From assembly GCA_946410005.1 (NCBI GenBank), contig CAMJYS010000006.1, forward strand, positions 1 through 16,563: a DNA stretch of 16,563 bases, read 5' to 3'. Shown here piece after piece: positions 3,244 to 16,563 of this stretch. The translations under genes and the position numbers were made by a program. Source of the DNA: an uncultured Clostridia bacterium. Lineage in GTDB: Bacteria > Bacillota > Clostridia > Oscillospirales > Acutalibacteraceae. Positions within the stretch are counted from its first letter, which is position 1; the number at the start of each line of letters is the position of its first letter. The notes under the pieces are model-generated. The model was not told the origin of the DNA, ran no database searches, and saw only the letters and a program-made list of their open reading frames with translations.

Positions 3244-3291
3244 GACAATTAGGTGGACTCTATTATTAATTAATTTTCAGGAGGGAAATAT

Positions 3292-6162
3292 ATGCGAGAA
3301 AATATTTACAAGATGTCGAAAAAGTTACTTGGAAATCCTGAATTTTGTAAAAAATTAGCTGAAAAGGAAACTTTTGACGACACTTACAAGTTCTGTGAAT
3401 CCATACAAGGTGGTTATACGAAAGAAGAATTTGAAAGCTTTTTAGATGAATCGGTTCATAACATGAATAAAGCTTTCATGGAAATGCTTTCACAAATTCC
3501 AAATGAAAAGCAAGAAAAATTTATAAAAGATTTCGCAAAGGAATTTTGCGGAATGTCAGAAACAGATTTTAATATTTTAATCGGAAAATTAACGCCGAAA
3601 CAAATGTCGCAAGTTACCGGCGGGATAAAAGGCCGAACTTACAATAAAATGCTTGCAAGCTCTTTGGCCGCATTAACCCTTGTATCTCCAATGCAACCGG
3701 CCTTTGCTGCAGAAAATGTCACAAGTTCAAAAGAAATATCCGGCGCTAATAAAAATCAAGATAAAAACGAAAGCGAACAACAGCCGGGGCTGTTTAAACG
3801 AATTTGGGAAAAAACGAAAAATTTTGTATGGAATAACAAAGGCAAAATTACCATAGGTGCCGCAGTTTTAGCGACTTTATTACTGTATGGATTTAACGTG
3901 AAAGGGTTAAGAACAGAAATTATAAATCCAAAGGCTAAAAAAATTGGAAAAGATGTAAAAAGTTTTTTTGTGAGCTCGACAGACTCGACAGATAAAAATA
4001 AATTAAAATACCGTATGGAAAAAAAGAAAACCGAGGATGGTAGTCACCATGTTAAATATACTATTCAACAAGGCAATGAATGTTATATATTAAGTAAGAC
4101 ATTTGGTTTGGAAGACGATGCTAAAAATGAAATGAGTGAAATAAATAAAAAAATAGAAGATAATGGAAATATAGATGATATTAAAAAAGATCTGCGAGAA
4201 GGTTGGAATGCAAGTTACAATAATAATTATGAATCATCGAAGAAGAGCGCTAAACAGTACTATAAAGATGTGAAAAACAAATTATTGGATAAAACCGGTA
4301 TAGGCGATCTACTATTGGGTGTAGGCTTTGTAGGTTTTATGATTGAAGATGCTCAAAATGTTGCCAAAAATGTTGAAAATTTATGGAATTTCAGATGGAC
4401 TTATCAAAGCATGAAAAAATCATTGAAAAAGTGGTATGAAAAAAAGCTTAATGAATTGAATTCAAGAGAACTGACAGTAGAAGAGTCTTTGCAAAATCTC
4501 AATGAACTTTTTAGCGTTGTAAAAGGACAATCAAAAGCAAAAGAAACTATTAGAGCTCAAGTTAATACAATACTGAGAGACCGTGATTTCTATAAACGCA
4601 GAGGACAACAATACAAAAAATGTAATATATTCTATTTCATAGGGCCATCCGGCGTAGGAAAATCCATGATTGCAAAAGGTCTTGCTGACTTTAATGTTCT
4701 TTCTTCGTCAACTCCATATTACATGTCCGCTTCGTCAATAGACAAGAAAAGTAATGAATCATATATTGAACAACTTTTCGGTGTAAACAGAAGTTATTAC
4801 AGCTATGGAAATGAAAATTCTAAGGGAGAAGCTACCAGCTTAGTACAATATATAAAATCAAATCCTAACGGTGTCGTTGTTATAGACGAATACGACAAAA
4901 TGTGGTGCGAAGGACTTGACGAAATATTCAGAACCGCAATGGATAAAGGAGAAATAGAAGTAAGACAACAAAAGATAGATTGCAGTAATATAACTTTTAT
5001 TTTAACTTCTAACGAAAGCATTGAAGCTATAAGAGGAGATAAACCAATAGAAGTTGAAATGGACGACGGAACAACAAATTTAGTCAGCCACGATAGATCG
5101 TTTATAAATCGTGTCACACGTGTACAGTTTGAAAACTTGTCTGTTGAAAATAATATGGAAATCATAAAACAAGAATTTGAAGATACCGCTCTTTCATATT
5201 GGAAAGACGATGAAATTGCCGGAATAGATATCGTACTAGACGATGATTGTTTAAGAAAAATGGCAATAGCAGTTATCGAAACAAAACGCGGTGCAAGGTA
5301 TATTGAAGAACTCAGAAAAAATTTGATGAGAGATGTAACCAAAAAAATATTTAACTCCTCAAATGACGGAAACAGCGGTGTTTCCACATATAGAGGTAAA
5401 CAACTGTTTGCTTGCTTTAATGATTATGACACAAACGAGAAAAAACACAGCTTCAGACTGCTTACAGAAGCGGAAAGAAACGCTTTGGTCAAAAAGCACG
5501 TCGAAGTCATGAAGAAATACTTCGAATCATCAGCTTTGGCTTACTGGAAAGACAAGGCCGACGTAGATATAGTTTTGGATGACGAATGCTTAAGAAAAAT
5601 GGCACTTTCGATCATCGCAACAGGAAACAGTCCAAAATACATTGAAGTTGTTGAAGAAAATCTAATGAAAGATGTTGCCGAAAAAATATATGGTACATCC
5701 GACCAAGATGGTTCTGACAAAGATTCCAAATATAAAGGACAAAAATTACTGGCATACTTTAATGATTATGGTATGGATGAGGAAAAACACGGCTTTACAC
5801 TTCTGTCCGAAGACGAAAAACGTGCTTTGGATAAAAAGGAAGAAAATAAAGTTAAAATCGATAATTTGGATATAGAGTCTATTGAAGAGCAAAAATCAGA
5901 AACCGATGAAGAAAAGAATTCAGAGACTACTGAAGAACAAAAATCAGAAACCGATGAAGAAAAAAATTCAGAGCCTGCTGAAGAACAAAAATCAGAAACC
6001 GATGAAGAAAAAAATTCAGAGCCTATTGAAGAACAAAAAGCAGAAACCGATGAAGAAAAAAGTTCAGAGCCTAATGAAGAGCAAAAATCGAAAAATGATA
6101 AAAATAAAGTTAATCCGATAGACATAAAACCATTAATTCCGGAAAACAAAAATAGGCGTTAA
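3292..6162 (+). CDS. Membrane-anchored AAA+ ATPase with Nif11/double-glycine leader-like N-terminus and acidic repeat tail
   Basis: A 956-residue protein with a mosaic layout. Residues 1-55 resemble a Nif11-type leader (LLGNPEFCKKLAEKETFDD, then YTKEEFESFLDE). Residues 100-111 read LTPKQMSQVTGG, a double-glycine leader ending at G110-G111. Hydrophobic segments lie at 120-140 (ending AFAA) and 186-203, which would make a membrane hairpin with both ends cytoplasmic. Residues 210-400 are charged and helical with a weak hydrophobic patch at 336-351. A Clp/HSP100 D2-like AAA+ module spans about 410-735: Walker A GPSGVGKS (451-458), Walker B VVVIDEYD (528-535), sensor-1 N574, arginine finger R607 and sensor-2 G-A-R669. 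The small subdomain then recurs at 737-847 with Lys782 where R669 would be. The tail (865-939) is a 16-residue acidic repeat. The gene has its own promoter and terminator, so it is monocistronic. The ATPase activity is well supported; the role is unknown. Remodelling of a membrane or exported substrate is an inference only. Confidence 0.85.
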   Translation: MRENIYKMSKKLLGNPEFCKKLAEKETFDDTYKFCESIQGGYTKEEFESFLDESVHNMNKAFMEMLSQIPNEKQEKFIKDFAKEFCGMSETDFNILIGKLTPKQMSQVTGGIKGRTYNKMLASSLAALTLVSPMQPAFAAENVTSSKEISGANKNQDKNESEQQPGLFKRIWEKTKNFVWNNKGKITIGAAVLATLLLYGFNVKGLRTEIINPKAKKIGKDVKSFFVSSTDSTDKNKLKYRMEKKKTEDGSHHVKYTIQQGNECYILSKTFGLEDDAKNEMSEINKKIEDNGNIDDIKKDLREGWNASYNNNYESSKKSAKQYYKDVKNKLLDKTGIGDLLLGVGFVGFMIEDAQNVAKNVENLWNFRWTYQSMKKSLKKWYEKKLNELNSRELTVEESLQNLNELFSVVKGQSKAKETIRAQVNTILRDRDFYKRRGQQYKKCNIFYFIGPSGVGKSMIAKGLADFNVLSSSTPYYMSASSIDKKSNESYIEQLFGVNRSYYSYGNENSKGEATSLVQYIKSNPNGVVVIDEYDKMWCEGLDEIFRTAMDKGEIEVRQQKIDCSNITFILTSNESIEAIRGDKPIEVEMDDGTTNLVSHDRSFINRVTRVQFENLSVENNMEIIKQEFEDTALSYWKDDEIAGIDIVLDDDCLRKMAIAVIETKRGARYIEELRKNLMRDVTKKIFNSSNDGNSGVSTYRGKQLFACFNDYDTNEKKHSFRLLTEAERNALVKKHVEVMKKYFESSALAYWKDKADVDIVLDDECLRKMALSIIATGNSPKYIEVVEENLMKDVAEKIYGTSDQDGSDKDSKYKGQKLLAYFNDYGMDEEKHGFTLLSEDEKRALDKKEENKVKIDNLDIESIEEQKSETDEEKNSETTEEQKSETDEEKNSEPAEEQKSETDEEKNSEPIEEQKAETDEEKSSEPNEEQKSKNDKNKVNPIDIKPLIPENKNRR
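5155..5832 (+). repeat. Protein-level duplication of the AAA+ small subdomain
   Basis: Residues about 622-735 and 737-847 of the AAA+ protein align over their length with an offset of 113-115 residues. Shared landmarks include ALSYWKD/ALAYWKD, DIVLDDDCLRKMA/DIVLDDECLRKMA, YIE-(8)-MRDV/MKDV, and CFNDYDTNEKKHSF/YFNDYGMDEEKHGF. The nucleotide sequences have diverged, so the duplication is not recent. Confidence 0.85.
5884..6108 (+). repeat. 48-bp in-frame tandem repeat, four full units plus a partial fifth
   Basis: Units at 5884-5931, 5932-5979, 5980-6027 and 6028-6075, with a degenerate fifth from 6076. Each encodes E-E-Q-K-S-E-T-D-E-E-K-N-S-E plus two variable residues (TT, PA, PI, PN). The units are near-identical at DNA level, which implies recent slippage or recombination. 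The result is an acidic, probably disordered tail whose length is likely to vary between strains. Confidence 0.93.
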
Positions 6163-10672: not shown

Positions 10673-10680
10673 GAGGTGAT
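10673..10680 (+). promoter_or_regulatory. Ribosome binding site that fixes the nrdR start
   Basis: GAGGTGAT matches the extended Shine-Dalgarno sequence (GGAGGTGATC). Its AGG ends 9 nt before the ATT at 10686. The nrdR frame has a TGA at 10680-10682, so initiation must be between there and the conserved Lys-Cys codons at 10689. TATAAT at 10644-10649 is a plausible -10 element, but its -35 is weak. Confidence 0.75.
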
Positions 10681-10685
10681 GACTT

Positions 10686-11138
10686 ATTAAATGTCCATAT
10701 TGTGCTTATTTAGAAAGTAAAGTTACGGAATCACGTTGTGCAGACGACGGATTAAAAGTTCGTAGGCGTAGGGAATGCGAAAGCTGCCATAGACGTTTTA
10801 CGACATACGAAGTTATAGAAAGCGTGCCGATTATGGTAATTAAGCGCAATGGAATGCGTGAGAAATTCGAGAGGAAAAAAGTTTTTGACGGGCTTTTTAA
10901 ATCCTGTGAAAAAAGGAAAATCACGCTCGATGATATTGAAAAAATGACGGATTCCATAGAGAAAAAAATTCAAAGTTTGCCGGAACGTGAAGTTTCATCA
11001 ACCCATATCGGTGAACTTTGTATGGATGAACTCAAAAAAATCGACGAAGTTGCGTATATACGTTTTGCGTCTGTTTATCGAGAGTTTAAAGATGTCCAAG
11101 CTTTTATGAAAGAACTCGAAACTTTTTTAAATAAATAA
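10686..11138 (+). CDS. nrdR: Transcriptional repressor NrdR, ATT start codon
   Basis: Zinc-ribbon/ATP-cone repressor that senses ATP and dATP and represses ribonucleotide reductase genes. With initiation at ATT (10686) the protein is 150 residues, the normal length, beginning M-K-C-P-Y-C. The zinc ribbon has C3-x2-C6 and the C-E-S-C pair, followed by H-R-R-F-T-T-Y-E. The ATP-cone starts at V-I-K-R-N-G-M-R-E-K-F and ends in the conserved VAYIRFASVYREFKD. No ATG, GTG or TTG exists in frame upstream of the ribbon: TGA occupies 10680-10682, followed by CTT and ATT. Standard gene callers would start at GTG or ATG near 10815-10824 and lose the whole DNA-binding ribbon. The gene has its own terminator-flanked unit. 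The target nrd genes are outside the window. Confidence 0.88.
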   Translation: MKCPYCAYLESKVTESRCADDGLKVRRRRECESCHRRFTTYEVIESVPIMVIKRNGMREKFERKKVFDGLFKSCEKRKITLDDIEKMTDSIEKKIQSLPEREVSSTHIGELCMDELKKIDEVAYIRFASVYREFKDVQAFMKELETFLNK

Positions 11139-11643: not shown

Positions 11644-11672
11644 TTGACAATAAAATTTCAAATATGTATCAT
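11644..11672 (+). promoter_or_regulatory. Promoter for the surface-protein/signal-peptidase operon
   Basis: TTGACA (11644-11649), a 17-bp spacer and TATCAT (11667-11672), about 40 bp before the ATG at 11713. It is the only clear promoter I find for the genes from 11713 to the window end. Confidence 0.8.
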
Positions 11673-11712
11673 ATATACGAAAACAATAATTTGTAGAAAG
11701 GTGGTTTTTTTG

Positions 11713-12429
11713 ATGAATACAAAAAAACACGGTAAAGTTACTATGGCATTGGTCATGATTGGAGGTTTGGCGGCGCTTTCAATTGCATATGCGGCAATTT
11801 CAACACAGCTCAACATTCGAACGAACGGAGACTCAGAAAAAGTTGAAGCGTCTGCAGTTATGTTTGATGAGACTTCTGATGCATGTAAAGGTTATGGCGT
11901 TTCAAAGCCTGTGGATTCGAGTGGGGTAATATCAGCTTCAAATGAATATGAAAATACACCGGGTAAAGAAACAGATAACGATTTAGCAAAATGCGGAAGT
12001 GTTGTAATTGGAAGTTCAAACAAAAGAAACGATACTGTAACAATTAATGGAACAATTCTAAGAGATTATGGTGCGTTTGCTGTTTATAAATTGACTATAG
12101 TGAATAGAGGTAGTACTGCTGTACAATTAACAAATAGTCCTAATTCTAACGATGTTATAAAATTCACAGATGGTACAGATTCAAAAATTCAGAAAAACGT
12201 AACAATAGGAGTATACACAAATCCGGAATGTACATCATTGGTTTATCAAGGTGCACAAATTGCAGGAGGCGCGTCTACTACATGGTATGTAAAAGTTGCT
12301 CACAGAGCTTATGGCACAGAATATACTGGAAGTAACCCGACGGATATATCATATGGTAACGATACACAAGATATTACATCAGGCCAATTCGGATTTACAA
12401 TTACACCGGTTTGGGAAAACGTTCAATAA
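11713..12429 (+). CDS. TasA/CalY-like exported protein with SipW-class signal
   Basis: A 238-residue secreted protein. A short basic start (MNTKKHGK) leads to a hydrophobic core at about 9-24 and then S23-I-A-Y-A-A-I-S-T-Q-L-N-I-R, which resembles the signal region of SipW-dependent proteins such as TasA, where cleavage falls near an A-(Y/W)-A-x-(F/I) sequence. The mature part has 'TVTINGTILRDYGAFAVYKLTIVNRGSTAVQL' type beta strands (here split by turns), as in TasA/camelysin-like Ig folds, and ends FGFTITPVWENVQ. The ATG at 11713 is preferred because AAAGGTGGT (11698-11705) precedes it; an in-frame TTG at 11644 lies in the promoter. The signal peptidase gene follows by 55 bp, so this is its most likely substrate. 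It may form surface fibres, by analogy only. Confidence 0.8.
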   Translation: MNTKKHGKVTMALVMIGGLAALSIAYAAISTQLNIRTNGDSEKVEASAVMFDETSDACKGYGVSKPVDSSGVISASNEYENTPGKETDNDLAKCGSVVIGSSNKRNDTVTINGTILRDYGAFAVYKLTIVNRGSTAVQLTNSPNSNDVIKFTDGTDSKIQKNVTIGVYTNPECTSLVYQGAQIAGGASTTWYVKVAHRAYGTEYTGSNPTDISYGNDTQDITSGQFGFTITPVWENVQ

Positions 12430-12431
12430 AG

Positions 12432-12454
12432 AAAATATAGAAAAACTATATTTT
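12432..12454 (+). terminator. AT-rich intergenic hairpin (possible weak terminator or processing site)
   Basis: A perfect 9-bp stem AAAATATAG (12432-12440) with CTATATTTT (12446-12454) around a loop of five A, followed by AATTCTT. The T-tract is mostly part of the stem, so it would terminate weakly. It sits between the abundant-substrate gene and the peptidase gene and could lower expression of the latter. Confidence 0.45.
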
Positions 12455-12484
12455 AATTCTTAATTTGAAAATGATAGGAAGTTT

Positions 12485-13657
12485 ATGGTGAAGAATTATG
12501 TAAGTAGGTTGTGGAAATTGAAAAAGAATACAATAATTTTATTAATTGCGGAATTCTTACTTACAGTCGCTTTAGTTGTCGACAGTTTCATATATGATAT
12601 TGTGTCTATAAATTTTTTAACAGTTTCTATGGCAATGCTATCGGTATGGCTGGTAGCACTTGCCAGATTCGAAAAAGATGATAGACGTTATAACGAAGAT
12701 GCGATTTCAATAGTTATAATAGTTGCGGCGTCATATTATATATCAACTTATCTGTTTGGACTTATTTCAGGATTTCATTGGAACACAAACGATATGTCAT
12801 TTTTTGGAATAGCTAAAAATTTATTGCAGTTTGGGCTATACATTGTCTTTTGCGAAATGTTTAGATATGTTATTGTCTCGAAAAGATATAAATCGAGATG
12901 GATCTATGTTTTGCTTATAATAATTTTATCTCTTTGCGATACATCTGACTTGATATATAAATGTAATTTAAAAGATATTAGCGATACGGTAGAATTGGTA
13001 GGATATTACGTTTTACCAAGTATCTTAAAAAACGTTACACTTACTTATGCTTCATTTAAAGTCGGATATAAGCCGACAATTATTTATAGACTGTTGCTTG
13101 AATTGCCGATATACTTTTTGCCATTTATACCGAACACAGGGCTTTATCTTCAATCCGTAATTAATATAGTATTACCTGTTATGCTATTTTTGTATTTCTT
13201 TGTTTCATTCAGAAAATTCAAACAAGCAAAAGTTAATAATAAGAATAAATATTTAAGTTATATTTTACCGACATTGCTTTTGATGATATTGCTGTCGGGC
13301 GTCGCACTTGTCAGTGGATATTTTAAATATTATTTAGTTACAATAGGTTCCGGATCTATGACACCCACAATATGTAAAGGTGATGCGATTATAGTAAAAA
13401 AACTTGATGAAGAAGAAATCAAAGAATTAAATGTCGGTGATGTTCTTGTGTTTAGAAATTCAGGTAAAACAATTGTGCATAGAATTGTAAAAGTTCTGCA
13501 AATTAAAGGGAAATATTGTTTTAAAACCAAAGGTGATTATAATGTTGCAGAAGATGCAAATATTACAAATCAAGATGACGTTGTGGGAACTACTTATTTA
13601 AGAATCCCGTGGATAGGTATTCCTACGGTTTGGCTTAATGAACAAGTAAATTTCTAA
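12485..13657 (+). CDS. Signal peptidase I, ER/SipW type, with polytopic N-terminal domain
   Basis: A 390-residue membrane peptidase. The catalytic domain occupies the last 115 or so residues: G-S-G-S291-M-T-P-T carries the serine nucleophile, I-V-H332-R-I-V has histidine where bacterial SPases use lysine, and T-K-G-D351 and E-D357 supply the aspartates. This Ser-His-Asp set is the archaeal/ER type seen in B. subtilis SipW. SipW itself is only about 190 residues; here about 270 residues with roughly eight hydrophobic segments precede the catalytic part, the last one (about 258-280) anchoring it as in SipW. The extension looks like a membrane domain of unknown role. AGGAAG at 12476-12481 is close to the ATG at 12485, so GTG at 12488 is an alternative start. 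Likely job: processing the exported proteins encoded on both sides. Confidence 0.88.
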   Translation: MVKNYVSRLWKLKKNTIILLIAEFLLTVALVVDSFIYDIVSINFLTVSMAMLSVWLVALARFEKDDRRYNEDAISIVIIVAASYYISTYLFGLISGFHWNTNDMSFFGIAKNLLQFGLYIVFCEMFRYVIVSKRYKSRWIYVLLIIILSLCDTSDLIYKCNLKDISDTVELVGYYVLPSILKNVTLTYASFKVGYKPTIIYRLLLELPIYFLPFIPNTGLYLQSVINIVLPVMLFLYFFVSFRKFKQAKVNNKNKYLSYILPTLLLMILLSGVALVSGYFKYYLVTIGSGSMTPTICKGDAIIVKKLDEEEIKELNVGDVLVFRNSGKTIVHRIVKVLQIKGKYCFKTKGDYNVAEDANITNQDDVVGTTYLRIPWIGIPTVWLNEQVNF

Positions 13658-13667
13658 TGAAAGTAGA

Positions 13668-14732
13668 GTGTTTAAGGTGAAAAAAATAAAAAAATCAAGT
13701 ATTTTTATTGCGATAATACTTGTATTGCTGTCATCTGTTTGTTTTTACTTCGGCGCAAACTATAAGCTTGAACATAGGCTTAATTACAGCGAAAAAGGAA
13801 GTATGGATTACAAAGTTTTTTTGAAAGAAAACAATGATTTCGAAACTCCTTTTTTAGAAAAAGACAAAAAATATATTGCAAGTTTGATAGACCATATCGA
13901 TATTGATTATAAATATGCTTTTAAATCAAACTATGATATGGATGTAATTTGTAAATATTACGTTTTAGCCTCGGCTTATGTTCAAGACGGTAGCAATGAG
14001 GGCAAAGTGATTTATCAAAAAGATAAATATATTTTGGAATCTAAAACCAAAGAATTTGCGGCGCAAAAAGAAGTAAATTTGAACGAAACAGTAGTTTTAA
14101 ATTATGATGAATACAATAACATAATTAAAGATTTTACATCGAGATATAATCTTTCGAGTACGAAAAATACGCTGGATTTGTCGTTATGTATTGAACTTGA
14201 AGCGAAAAATGAAAATTTTGAAAATCCGTTTGTTGACACAAGCAAGTTAAATGCGACAATTCCTTTAACAGATCAAACTTTGGCGGTAGACCTTGAGTAC
14301 AAAGAGATTGACCAAAACGGAACAAAAGTTCAGGTATCTTCAAATAAACTTGTAAATATTTTACTGTTTATTGCTGCGATTTTAAGTGCATTACTTGCTG
14401 GTATTCTTATAACTTCGATTGCAAAGCAATATTTAAAAATAAAAAACGAAGAAACGAAATACCAAAGAACCAGAAACGAGATACTTAGCAGCTATAATAA
14501 AGTTATTTCAAAGCTTACAAGTATAACGGATATGTCATCTTACGATGTAGCTGATACGAATGACTTTTTAGATCTTGTGAATATAAGAGATTGTCTTGAC
14601 AGGCCGATACTTTTCGTGGAATTGGAAAAAGATAAACTTGCATGGTTTATGGTTTTAGATAATGCTGTTTTCTATAGATATATTTTAAAAGATGAAGAAA
14701 ATGAAAAAAATGGCGAGAAATCCGAAATCTAA
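13668..14732 (+). CDS. Bitopic membrane protein, DUF5305-like
   Basis: A 354-residue protein with an N-terminal membrane helix (about 11-28, IFIAIILVLLSSVCFYFGAN), a roughly 200-residue extracytoplasmic region, a second helix (about 226-247, VNILLFIAAILSALLAGILI), and a cytoplasmic C-terminal region of about 100 residues. The outer region has patterned strands (Y-K-V-F-L-K-E-N-N-D-F; 'DVICKYYVLASAYV'; 'VVLNYDEYNNIIKDF'; 'LCIELEAK') that fit DUF5305, a family found beside ER-type signal peptidases in archaea and Bacillota. Its function is unknown. It starts 10 bp after the peptidase stop, so it is co-transcribed and probably works with it, perhaps in folding, holding or sorting the substrates (inference). 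The start is uncertain: GTG at 13668 or GTG at 13677, neither with a strong ribosome site. Confidence 0.72.
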   Translation: MFKVKKIKKSSIFIAIILVLLSSVCFYFGANYKLEHRLNYSEKGSMDYKVFLKENNDFETPFLEKDKKYIASLIDHIDIDYKYAFKSNYDMDVICKYYVLASAYVQDGSNEGKVIYQKDKYILESKTKEFAAQKEVNLNETVVLNYDEYNNIIKDFTSRYNLSSTKNTLDLSLCIELEAKNENFENPFVDTSKLNATIPLTDQTLAVDLEYKEIDQNGTKVQVSSNKLVNILLFIAAILSALLAGILITSIAKQYLKIKNEETKYQRTRNEILSSYNKVISKLTSITDMSSYDVADTNDFLDLVNIRDCLDRPILFVELEKDKLAWFMVLDNAVFYRYILKDEENEKNGEKSEI

Positions 14733-14753
14733 ATTTATGTAGGATTGGTGTTT

Positions 14754-14801
14754 ATGAAAAAGCGCATAAACAGAATAAATAAAAACAGATTCAAGCGGTA
14801 A
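14754..14801 (+). CDS. 15-residue basic micro-ORF (possible leader peptide)
   Basis: ATG at 14754, reading MKKRINRINKNRFKR then TAA. AGGA at 14741-14744 with GGTG just after gives it a fair ribosome site. Seven of the 15 residues are Lys or Arg. It resembles the basic start of an export signal that never reaches the hydrophobic core: compare MKKRHKLFYRHR in the next gene and MKNKFRLIRIKK in the one after. A terminator-like hairpin follows its stop at once. It may be a translated leader of an attenuator, a decayed fragment of a surface-protein gene, or simply chance in AT-rich DNA. Confidence 0.4.
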   Translation: MKKRINRINKNRFKR

Positions 14802-14806
14802 TATTT

Positions 14807-14838
14807 TGCGCCATTTTTAAGTGGCGCATTTATTTTTT
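14807..14838 (+). terminator. Terminator-like hairpin inside the surface operon
   Basis: TGCGCCA (14807-14813) pairs with TGGCGCA (14822-14828) around an 8-nt loop, followed by TTTATTTTTT. No promoter is visible between it and the gene at 14870, so downstream expression would depend on read-through. Confidence 0.75.
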
Positions 14839-14869
14839 ACACAATTTAGTGAAAGAAGGAGAAAATTTC

Positions 14870-16012
14870 ATGAAAAAAAGGCATAAACTTTTTTATCGGC
14901 ATAGACTAGCAAGTTCAATTTTTTATTTGTTTAGTTTTGCAGCGCTTATTTGTACAGTTTCAATTGTATACACCTCAATTACCTCTTCGCTTAATATATC
15001 AGGGGAAGGTATAGTTGATGGACCGGTTAACGAATACTACTATAAATCAGGATATTTTTATGAGGATGAAGCTTGTACGGTAAAAGTAACTTCAAACGGC
15101 TCGGATGTAAGAAAGTTTTCCGATATGGTAAATATAGCAAAGGACGGAAATACTATATACATGATGAGCAACTACACTGTTGGAGTCGGAACTGAAGAAG
15201 TAACGGTTGGCGCAAAGAACATACAAGTAAAACGTCATCCGAGTTTTACAAGTAGAAGTATGTTTTATATAATTGTATCGTCAGCAGCGCCATCATCAGA
15301 ATATAAAACTTTTACTATTAAAGCTGAAAATTCAAGTGGTTCGATAGTATTTGATGGACAAAATATAGAAGTTTCAACAGATGAAGGTGGATTATTTAAT
15401 CTTTATGGAACAAATGCTACATTGAATATTATCGGTAGTGAAAAATCAAACGGAGAAAAAAATGTAAAACTAATAAATAGTAAAATTAAAAATTCTTCAG
15501 ATTCTGTGGGCGGCGCAATAGAAAATTACTCTGGTGGAACAGTTGACATAACTCATTGTGAATTAAGTGGCAATTCTGCTATTAGTTCATCAAGCTGGGC
15601 CGCAGGAGGAGCGATATATACCACAGTTAATGTTGCTACACTTAATTTAAATAGTTGTACTATAAGAAATAATATTACTTCCGGAATTAATGATCGTGTA
15701 CAAGGTGGCGGTGTATACAACGGTAAAAATATGACCATTAAAGGAAAAATGATTATTGAAAATAATAAATCTATTATTAACGGAGTTGAAAAAACAGACA
15801 ATTTATATTTGAGTTACTCAACAGTCGACACAAGCGGTTTGACGAGCGGAAGCAGAATAGGCATAACGACTTCGACAACTCCGACAAGCAGTTCAAACGT
15901 AACTATTTCTCCGAGCGGTTCGGCGGCTTCTACAGCAGACTACTTCTTCTCGGATGTTTCGGGATATATAGTTAGTCTTGTAAATAATGCACTGGTCTTA
16001 AAAGTAGGATAG
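14870..16012 (+). CDS. Exported surface protein with beta-helix repeats
   Basis: A 380-residue protein. The start MKKRHKLFYRHR is strongly basic, followed by a hydrophobic core (17-33) and the motif S31-I-V-Y-T-S-I-T-S-S-L-N-I-S-G-E-G shared with the other exported proteins here. Residues about 150-300 carry right-handed beta-helix-type repeats, with glycine-led turns 32-33 residues apart at G214-G-A-I, G246-G-A-I and G279-G-G-V-Y and alternating hydrophobic strands with N-N or G-N turns between them. This layout is typical of adhesin-like or Pmp-like surface proteins. The C-terminal part is Ser/Thr/Gly-rich and has no LPXTG motif or anchor. ATG at 14870 is chosen because AAGGAG (14856-14861) precedes it at 8 bp; an in-frame GTG at 14849 lies upstream of that site. 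It is probably processed by the operon's signal peptidase. The biological role is unknown. Confidence 0.78.
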   Translation: MKKRHKLFYRHRLASSIFYLFSFAALICTVSIVYTSITSSLNISGEGIVDGPVNEYYYKSGYFYEDEACTVKVTSNGSDVRKFSDMVNIAKDGNTIYMMSNYTVGVGTEEVTVGAKNIQVKRHPSFTSRSMFYIIVSSAAPSSEYKTFTIKAENSSGSIVFDGQNIEVSTDEGGLFNLYGTNATLNIIGSEKSNGEKNVKLINSKIKNSSDSVGGAIENYSGGTVDITHCELSGNSAISSSSWAAGGAIYTTVNVATLNLNSCTIRNNITSGINDRVQGGGVYNGKNMTIKGKMIIENNKSIINGVEKTDNLYLSYSTVDTSGLTSGSRIGITTSTTPTSSSNVTISPSGSAASTADYFFSDVSGYIVSLVNNALVLKVG

Positions 16013-16065
16013 TTTAAAATATCGTGTGTACTACTAATGCAAAATTTTTTAAGATAGGAGAATTT

Positions 16066-16563
16066 ATGAAAAATAAATTTAGATTAATTAGAATAAAAAA
16101 GTTTTTTAAAAAAAGAATAATTTCTATAAGTGTATTGGCCGGTCTTGCTATTTTAATGGTAAATATCTGTTTTCTCTCTATTTTATATGGTGCAATAAGT
16201 ACAATGATTAATATTTCCGGAGAAGGAAGAGTAGTTTCGGAATCAAGCTTAACGCTTTCCTTGACAGACTATTCCCAAATAAAAATTACACCAACGGGAT
16301 ATTATAGTTTAGAAAGCGATAATGAGACTTCATATACAGGCCCATATATAATCACAGGTTCTAGTACAAGTTATACACCATTGTTTATATTCAATGACAC
16401 TTCAAGCGGCGGATACAATGGTGCGGTTTTTAATATTAAGTTGGTTGACGCTACAATTAAGGGTAAAACATGGTGTACGTCTATACTCATCCAAGGTGAC
16501 TGTAGCTCTGTTGTAAATATAGAAACAGAAGGAACATGTCAATCGATTGGATATAACCACGCA
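16066..16563 (+). CDS. Exported surface protein, 3'-truncated by window end
   Basis: The frame is open for 166 codons from ATG 16066 to the last base, with a ribosome site ATAGGAG (16054-16060). The N-terminus is basic (MKNKFRLIRIKKFFKKR), followed by a hydrophobic core (18-37) and S38-I-L-Y-G-A-I-S-T-M-I-N-I-S-G-E-G, closely matching the signal motif of the gene upstream (I-S-G-E-G shared exactly). The visible mature part is Ser/Thr-rich with alternating hydrophobic strands (VFNIKLVDATIKGKTW, then SVVNIETEGTC), which suggests another beta-solenoid protein, perhaps a paralogue. It follows the previous gene by 53 bp with no terminator, so it belongs to the same operon. Confidence 0.78.
   Translation, partial: MKNKFRLIRIKKFFKKRIISISVLAGLAILMVNICFLSILYGAISTMINISGEGRVVSESSLTLSLTDYSQIKITPTGYYSLESDNETSYTGPYIITGSSTSYTPLFIFNDTSSGGYNGAVFNIKLVDATIKGKTWCTSILIQGDCSSVVNIETEGTCQSIGYNHA

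Follow-up and report, generated by a model that had tools for sequence, protein, structure and literature searches.

A Nif11-type double-glycine leader on an HSP100-like ATPase and on other large proteins of related Clostridia

We analysed a 16,563-nucleotide stretch of DNA (the window; positions 1 to 16,563 of contig CAMJYS010000006.1, assembly GCA_946410005.1) from an uncultured Clostridia bacterium of the Acutalibacteraceae. According to the list of open reading frames (ORFs) and their translations, the frame at 3292-6162 on the forward strand encodes a 956-residue AAA+ ATPase. Sequence comparison confirms its residues 1-111 as a divergent Nif11-type leader with a double-glycine (GG) end. 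ABC exporters with a C39 peptidase are known for small bacteriocins and for ribosomally synthesized and post-translationally modified peptides (RiPPs). Here, the tag of such an exporter sits on several unrelated kinds of large protein, together with a signal-peptide-like element. The leader on large proteins is genuine and recurs, and it puts a known type of leader and exporter to an unusual use; from the sequences, the clade most likely re-uses the peptide exporter's tag on large proteins. We consider it probable that residues 1-111 are a true Nif11-family leader that is read, and most likely cut, by an NHLM-type C39 exporter, and that the ATPase belongs to a set of large proteins of this clade with a two-part address.

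The leader and its double-glycine end

A first-pass annotation, made without database searches, had likened residues 1-55 to a Nif11-type leader and had proposed a hidden Markov model (HMM) search of the leader region against Nif11 and GG families. Direct HMM searches with Pfam and NCBIfam gave no score for the window leader with PF07862 or TIGR03798, which counts against the kinship. We regard this plain negative as overturned because profile comparison, a bridging protein and GG conservation point the other way. An alignment of 14 window-type leaders (A2) matched an alignment of 13 Nif11 leaders from the exporter loci of two related genomes, G051 and G056 (A3), with an hhalign probability of 96.3 and an E-value of 1.5e-9 (for a single comparison) over 63 columns. 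On a rerun the score was 43.0, and none of 200 column permutations of A3 reached it (best, 16.9). The bridging protein is P0149, which carries PF07862 and shares 40% identity with the window leader in residues 1-47; against TIGR03798 it scores 30.0 bits (4.6e-7), just under the cut-off of 32.3. With the profile match and P0149, the earlier assignment is borne out. The G051 exporter locus runs from an HlyD-like gene through C39-ABC and second ABC genes to at least nine small GG precursors. Six of these precursors were scanned; four lie above the Pfam Nif11 cut-off and two above that of TIGR03798.

A structural model of the leader only, for which five sequences were aligned, shows a bundle made up entirely of helices, and a short one (residues 102-109) stands directly before the GG; block means of the predicted local distance difference test are 76-91 over residues 1-80. 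A fold search with this model gave weak helical matches only. Compared by sequence, the A2 profile and the solved Nif11 entry 9zn4 correspond from end to end, but weakly (E 0.43). Chance resemblance of an unrelated helical domain would fit both the weak helical matches of the fold search and the silence of the curated HMMs. The permutation-controlled profile comparison, the bridging protein and the C39 pattern in held-out leaders (below) argue against chance, and we find it scarcely credible.

The proposed GG end at residues 100-111 also stands. GG110-111 is kept in all eight close leader-bearing homologues, which are worth about four independent cases because five of them are 94-95% identical overall, and eight more distant leader-bearing ATPases likewise have GG at the leader end. 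A ninth close homologue, P0010, has no leader and begins at the signal-peptide-like segment. In the portions of PMC6959990 available to us, the C39 recognition pattern is L(-12)xxxE(-8)L(-7)xxxxGG, with -4 as a specificity position; the same L/E/L appears in the available portions of PMC6363468. We scored a pattern loosened from the published one: L/I/V/M/F at -12, D/E/Q/N at -8, L/I/V/M/F at -7 and L/I/V/M/A/C at -4. With L, Q, M and V, the window protein fits it. Held-out leader ORFs (56, close orthologues among them) include 50 with GG, and 35 of the 50 match at all four positions and 45 at three or more. The corresponding counts for background GG sites in the same regions are 2 and 42 of 470. 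The procedure that chose the GG here put no constraint on -7 to -3 and loses two GG sites that are followed by F. By these comparisons the window leader combines a conserved GG with the C39 recognition positions.

The exporter and its distribution

The first-pass annotation had also suggested looking for a C39 peptidase or ABC transporter in the same genome, and these genes were found on two contigs. By sequence match, the window genome (G000) encodes a cognate C39-ABC exporter. On contig C66, the HlyD-like subunit scores 100 bits of 156 with TIGR03794, and the match to TIGR03796 covers the first 299 positions of that model; contig C5 has the remainder of TIGR03796 together with TIGR03797 (709.0 bits of 709.4). 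The C39-ABC gene is thus split over two contig ends in this assembly (332 + 522 bits). The HlyD-like subunit is short, at 213 residues against a 421-position model, and is below the TIGR03794 cut-off. The closest solved relative of the C39 domain is LahT, an AMS/PCAT protease of Lachnospiraceae (PDB 6mpz, E 5.6e-54), with ALECGAA, NHFVV and NDPA aligned. We take the aligned Cys of ECGAA, the His and the Asp to be the catalytic residues. The available portions of PMC6363468 report that LahT150 cuts seven tested LahA substrates with Nif11-type leaders as well as nitrile-hydratase-type leaders; Nif11 leaders are cut at the GG, and the characterised LahT cargo there consists of small precursor peptides, some tagged with maltose-binding protein.

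The C39-ABC and second ABC subunits resemble those of known NHLM/NHLP exporters (TIGR03794, TIGR03796, TIGR03797). The locus of this genus differs in lying behind V-type ATP synthase genes without precursor neighbours, as seen in three relatives (G003, G004, G007), and the gene order on contig C66 of the window genome is the same. Subunit D alone was labelled V-type by model match, and the other subunits by eye. The loci in which the exporter follows V-type ATP synthase genes are L178, L175, L176 and contig C66. YcaO was found in none of 18 genomes and LanC as three fragments only, which makes a modification-guiding role for the leader less likely.

We searched 97 related genomes with P0001, TIGR03796 and A2. 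A2 matched at an E-value of 0.05 or better in 21 genomes and strongly (1e-4 or better) in 15 (G000-G010, G015, G043, G051, G056). TIGR03796 scored above its cut-off of 853 bits in 15 genomes (G001-G010, G015, G043, G051, G056, G059); it is present in two pieces in G000 and fell just short in G063 (843 bits) and G046 (829). The exporter occurs in 15 of 15 leader genomes and, above 800 bits, in 3 of the 82 others (Fisher 5e-15 by genome). Counted by genus, it occurs in five of five leader genera versus 3 of 76 others (Fisher 2e-6). Leaders were found through the ATPase and not through the exporter. Of the 15 positive genomes, 12 contributed rows to A2, so a match in those is in part built in; beyond this, A2 adds G007, G051, G056, the extra copies and the silence of the other genomes. 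Weak matches in G086 (3.4e-4) and in G053, G095, G064, G087 and G068 (0.006-0.045) were treated as chance. The G086 match, in the only weak-match region read, falls near the end of a gene that we take to be HtpG-like.

Within the window genome, a search with the 111-residue leader returned itself alone, even at E 10. The A2 profile found one further leader, on contig C22, and a weak PF07862 match (0.003) on contig C67 was read by eye. Contigs C22 (L148, 2574-2897 and 4578-4898) and C67 (L163, 86-586) hold further leader or GG-type ORFs. The C67 ORF, of 166 residues, resembles the leader part of a lipase-like protein of G001 and may be a shortened copy. For two leader-bearing sequences, P0146, whose leader ends at GGKS on a 65-kb contig, and P0148, in which the beginning of a leader is joined to a different tail, gene fission or a chimeric contig may be the explanation.

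Large leader-bearing proteins and how they may be sorted

After de-duplication we count 70 leader ORFs: the profile detected 60 (E < 0.01 within the regions retrieved), and PF07862 matches or reading led to the other 10, entered by hand; G000 and G007 share one row, their first 120 residues being identical. The ORFs span all 15 leader genomes, and 36 of at least 250 residues occur in 13 of these (not G006 or G010). The leader is thus borne by small peptides and by proteins of 263-2787 residues. The first-pass annotation had called for a search for the same fusion, and it turned up the leader on ATPases of relatives and on many other large proteins. The large proteins include HSP100-like ATPases, classical AAA proteins (L194 and L196; 1.6e-22 and 1e-21), Mbeg1-like lipase-fold proteins (G001, 6.6e-51; G002, 4.7e-52, the latter outside the 70), a BspA-type leucine-rich repeat protein (3e-69), a peptidase-MA-like protein (1.9e-9) and a 1049-residue protein whose repeats look immunoglobulin-like by eye and which has no Pfam domain over cut-off. 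G051 encodes giants of 1598, 2787 and 2111 residues with a Nif11-like leader and GG (L165, 2626-15898; L166, 3227-9562). The first two have no Pfam match, and the 2111-residue protein was scanned against NCBIfam only. Five of ten large leader ORFs had no Pfam match at 0.01.

The second element of the address follows the GG. By our own rule, GG is present in 34 of the 36 large leader ORFs. In none of the 34 does the best 15-residue hydropathy after it fall below 0.99; the median is 1.68, and 22 reach 1.6 or more. A value of 1.6 was reached by none of 20 small precursors from exporter loci (21 listed, one too short), by 1.8% of 1700 random windows drawn from the same large proteins, and by 9 of the 29 leader ORFs under 250 residues that were long enough (median 0.59). 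The GG chooser in this test favours certain residues at -7 to -3. In the window protein, the hydrophobic stretch ending AFAA that had been noted after the GG was recovered at residues 120-138 (mean hydropathy 1.23).

The window protein has 845 residues after the GG, so it is not a short precursor with a short core; it is not a small peptide with a variable core, as a RiPP precursor would be. The Nif11 families were defined with short, variable cores (N11P; Haft et al. 2010, PMC2887384, in the portions available). Compared with RiPP precursors that have Nif11-like leaders (PF07862, TIGR03798), the helical leader, the V/I-S/A/T-GG end and the exporter type are alike, whereas the cargo is a 956-residue AAA+ protein with a signal-peptide-like segment. 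In a class-wide sample of 293 genomes, TIGR03798 at 1e-5 gave 18 matches in 7 genomes, all 18 in frames of 84-163 residues, which shows canonical Nif11 leaders on small proteins there. Because TIGR03798 misses even the window leader, it could also have passed over large proteins with divergent leaders in other parts of the class.

The address would read, in order, leader, GG, hydrophobic segment and mature protein. The C39 domain of the exporter would cut after G111, and removal of the leader would leave a new N-terminus that starts with the hydrophobic segment. The end state may be a membrane-anchored HSP100-like unfoldase, its AAA+ ring most likely on the cytosolic side, since the ring needs ATP. 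We infer the cleavage, the topology, the unfoldase activity and the moving machine, which may be NHLM itself or Sec after unmasking. We give cleavage the highest rank on two grounds: its recognition site is conserved in the way seen in cut substrates, and cargo other than ATPases bears the tag too. More tentatively, and at somewhat below even chances, a RiPP-type exporter may in this clade have turned into a general protein-targeting system, with about three dozen large proteins in the regions read, including AAA+ ATPases, lipase-like and leucine-rich repeat proteins and giants up to 2787 residues long, bearing the C39-cut leader and the signal-like segment.

Can an NHLM exporter transport a protein of 100 kDa, or does it pass the protein on to Sec once the leader is off? 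In one alternative, the leader does nothing except keep the signal-like segment from Sec until C39 removes it, and Sec transports the protein. The segment after the GG does resemble a Sec signal, and 31 of the 34 large GG-bearing leader proteins have a loose [AVSG]xA motif behind it (a count made without a control); leaderless relatives begin exactly at the signal-like segment. However, the timing that masking supposes is conjectural, and those leaderless versions seem to need no mask; we hold masking to be unlikely, if a serious contender.

In another alternative, the leader would bind the exporter's C39 domain uncut and hold the AAA+ unfoldase there to prepare large leader-bearing cargo. The HSP100-type fold of the window ATPase, relatives in which a leader peptide and the ATPase are adjacent genes, and the presence in the same genomes of large leader proteins that might need unfolding are all consistent with docking. 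Nevertheless, the GG and the -12, -8, -7 and -4 positions are kept as in cut substrates, the leader also occurs on non-ATPase proteins, hence as a general cargo tag, and the ATPases of some relatives have no leader. These points make docking decidedly unlikely in our judgement.

The split and fused forms bear on the history of the leader. In G010 and G006 the ATPase (787 and 799 residues) begins directly at a Sec-like signal without a leader, and a leader gene with GGG and a short core lies downstream (in G010, 109 residues with a 33-residue core). The window's N-terminal fusion is not a simple read-through, because the separate leader gene lies downstream of the ATPase. The G010 pair adjoins a gene that we take to be tyrS, and G008 keeps a leader gene beside a presumed tyrS near a contig end.

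Rates of change differ sharply along the protein. Between the window ATPase gene and its homologue L004, the 333 bases of leader DNA are identical, the AAA+ region has 3 synonymous and 1 nonsynonymous changes, and the linker, residues 186-385, differs at 17% of its synonymous and 14% of its nonsynonymous sites (uncorrected). With the homologues P0007-P0009, identity is 91-98% in residues 1-55, 30-42% in the linker and 72-93% in the AAA+ region. On these comparisons the leader is not drifting. The linker is hypervariable, which suggests either diversifying selection or a recombination swap. The separate leader gene beside the ATPase in G006 and G010 might favour a relic, in which a precursor peptide that now has no function was left fused to the ATPase. 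The contrast between residues 1-55 and the linker, the GG kept in distant homologues and the same architecture on unrelated proteins make this very improbable.

Several points weigh against a cleaved leader in a two-part address, in addition to the silent HMMs. Position -8 of the window leader is Gln and not the published Glu. The A2 profile rows fit the loosened pattern worse than the held-out set does (13 of 14 have GG; 6 match at all four positions and 10 at three or more). Two large G043 proteins have the leader without GG. The charges flanking the membrane segments of the window protein are compatible with more than one topology. Some relatives of the ATPase lack the leader and have an ordinary signal-like start, so not every member of the ATPase family needs it. 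The co-occurrence of leader and exporter may reflect shared descent, since 11 of the 15 genomes belong to one genus and the five genera are perhaps one clade. In the portions of the literature consulted, NHLM/PCAT cargo is small, and large type I cargo bears an uncut C-terminal signal (PMC6959990, available portions).

Large or fused Nif11 or double-glycine cargo is not described among the matches listed from the open-access literature, at the level of titles and the starts of abstracts. The available portions of PMC8939145 (graspetides), PMC6959600 (Legionella NHLP-type exporters) and PMC10986499 (HetC) describe no such cargo either. We found no earlier description, among these open-access matches, of a leader-plus-signal sorting pathway for large bacterial proteins. 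If the tag is cut and used, the cargo range of the whole exporter family widens. It would also give a new handle on the secreted and membrane proteins of small-genome Clostridia, whose proteins are mostly unnamed now. For RiPP-mining tools there is a warning, as a Nif11 leader need not mean a natural product.

The ATPase and its surroundings

The features of the window protein are collected in Table 1. The leader start is well placed because AGGAGGG stands six bases before the ATG. A second membrane segment had been noted at residues 186-203 and was found at 186-204; the third hydrophobic segment, at residues 336-354, is absent from the first-pass annotation.

Table 1. Features of the leader-bearing ATPase gene in the window.
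Feature	Position	Strand	Basis or remark
Ribosome-binding site AGGAGGG	3279..3285	+	Read directly; six bases 5' of ATG
Nif11-like helical part of leader, residues 1-55 (Y32, C35, GY 41-42, E46, F50)	3292..3456	+	Conserved columns; hhalign to Nif11 leaders
Leader spacer, residues 56-99, less conserved, and longer than in other leaders	3457..3588	+	
GG end of leader, residues 100-111, LTPKQMSQVTGG: L(-12), Q(-8), M(-7), V(-4), G(-2)G(-1)	3589..3624	+	C39 cleavage predicted after G111
Signal-peptide-like hydrophobic segment ending AFAA, residues 112-140	3625..3711	+	Leaderless relatives begin here
Predicted membrane segment, residues 186-204	3847..3903	+	Mean hydropathy 1.57
Fast-changing linker, residues 186-385, between near-identical leader and AAA+ regions	3847..4446	+	Comparison with L004
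Third hydrophobic segment, residues 336-354	4297..4353	+	Mean hydropathy 1.35
AAA+ module of HSP100 (ClpC/ClpB second-ring) type, residues 386-720	4447..5451	+	
Apparent second copy of the AAA+ small (lid) subdomain, residues 721-862	5452..5877	+	Internal similarity read from translation only
Acidic repeat tail EEQKSETDEEKNSEP, residues 863-956	5878..6162	+	Copy number differs among homologues

The window ATPase is an AAA+ protein of the HSP100 second-ring type. At gathering scores Pfam reports AAA-type domains only, the best being AAA_2 (residues 447-586, 9.6e-14), and the nearest solved relatives listed are second rings of the ClpC/ClpB type, by sequence and by fold. Walker A (GPSGVGKS, 4642-4665) and the Walker B region (VVVIDEYDKM) are both intact within AAA_2. 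An Arg (R607) and a GAR motif (667-669) are also conserved, and we presume that they have their usual functional roles in the module. The AAA+ module and Walker motifs are like those of the second AAA+ ring of ClpC/ClpB, but the window ATPase has a single ring, membrane segments, an apparently doubled lid and the N-terminal leader, and the Clp N domain was not found in the Pfam scan. Against the ClpG and TssH equivalog models it falls far under the curated cut-offs (TssH, 65 bits of 885; ClpG, 32 of 1900).

Related AAA+ genes occur nearby in some relatives and elsewhere in the window genome. In G001 and G002 an AAA+ gene with a signal-like start and a longer HSP100-like gene, all on one strand, precede the leader ATPase; G005 has only the HSP100-like gene in front of it and lacks the middle AAA+ gene. 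Such gene rows lie at L071 4238-9991, L067 2315-8001 and L072 894-5410, and the two from G001 match AAA+ defence models such as DolB. Contig C46 of the window genome (L002, 1363-2454) encodes a leaderless 363-residue AAA+ paralogue that is 34% identical over the ATPase domain and has, by eye, an N-terminal hydrophobic stretch.

Elsewhere in the window, positions 11644-16563 encode a SipW-like signal peptidase I (90 bits with TIGR02228), three proteins with SipW/TasA-type N-termini (e.g. SIAYAAISTQLNI) and a DUF5305 protein. This cluster looks like a secreted fibre or adhesin locus, and its link to TasA is our assumption. The frame at 10680-11138, which we take to be NrdR-like, has a zinc-finger part (LIKCPYC) without a usable ATG, GTG or TTG upstream in the ORF list, and this may reflect an unusual start codon or a sequence error.

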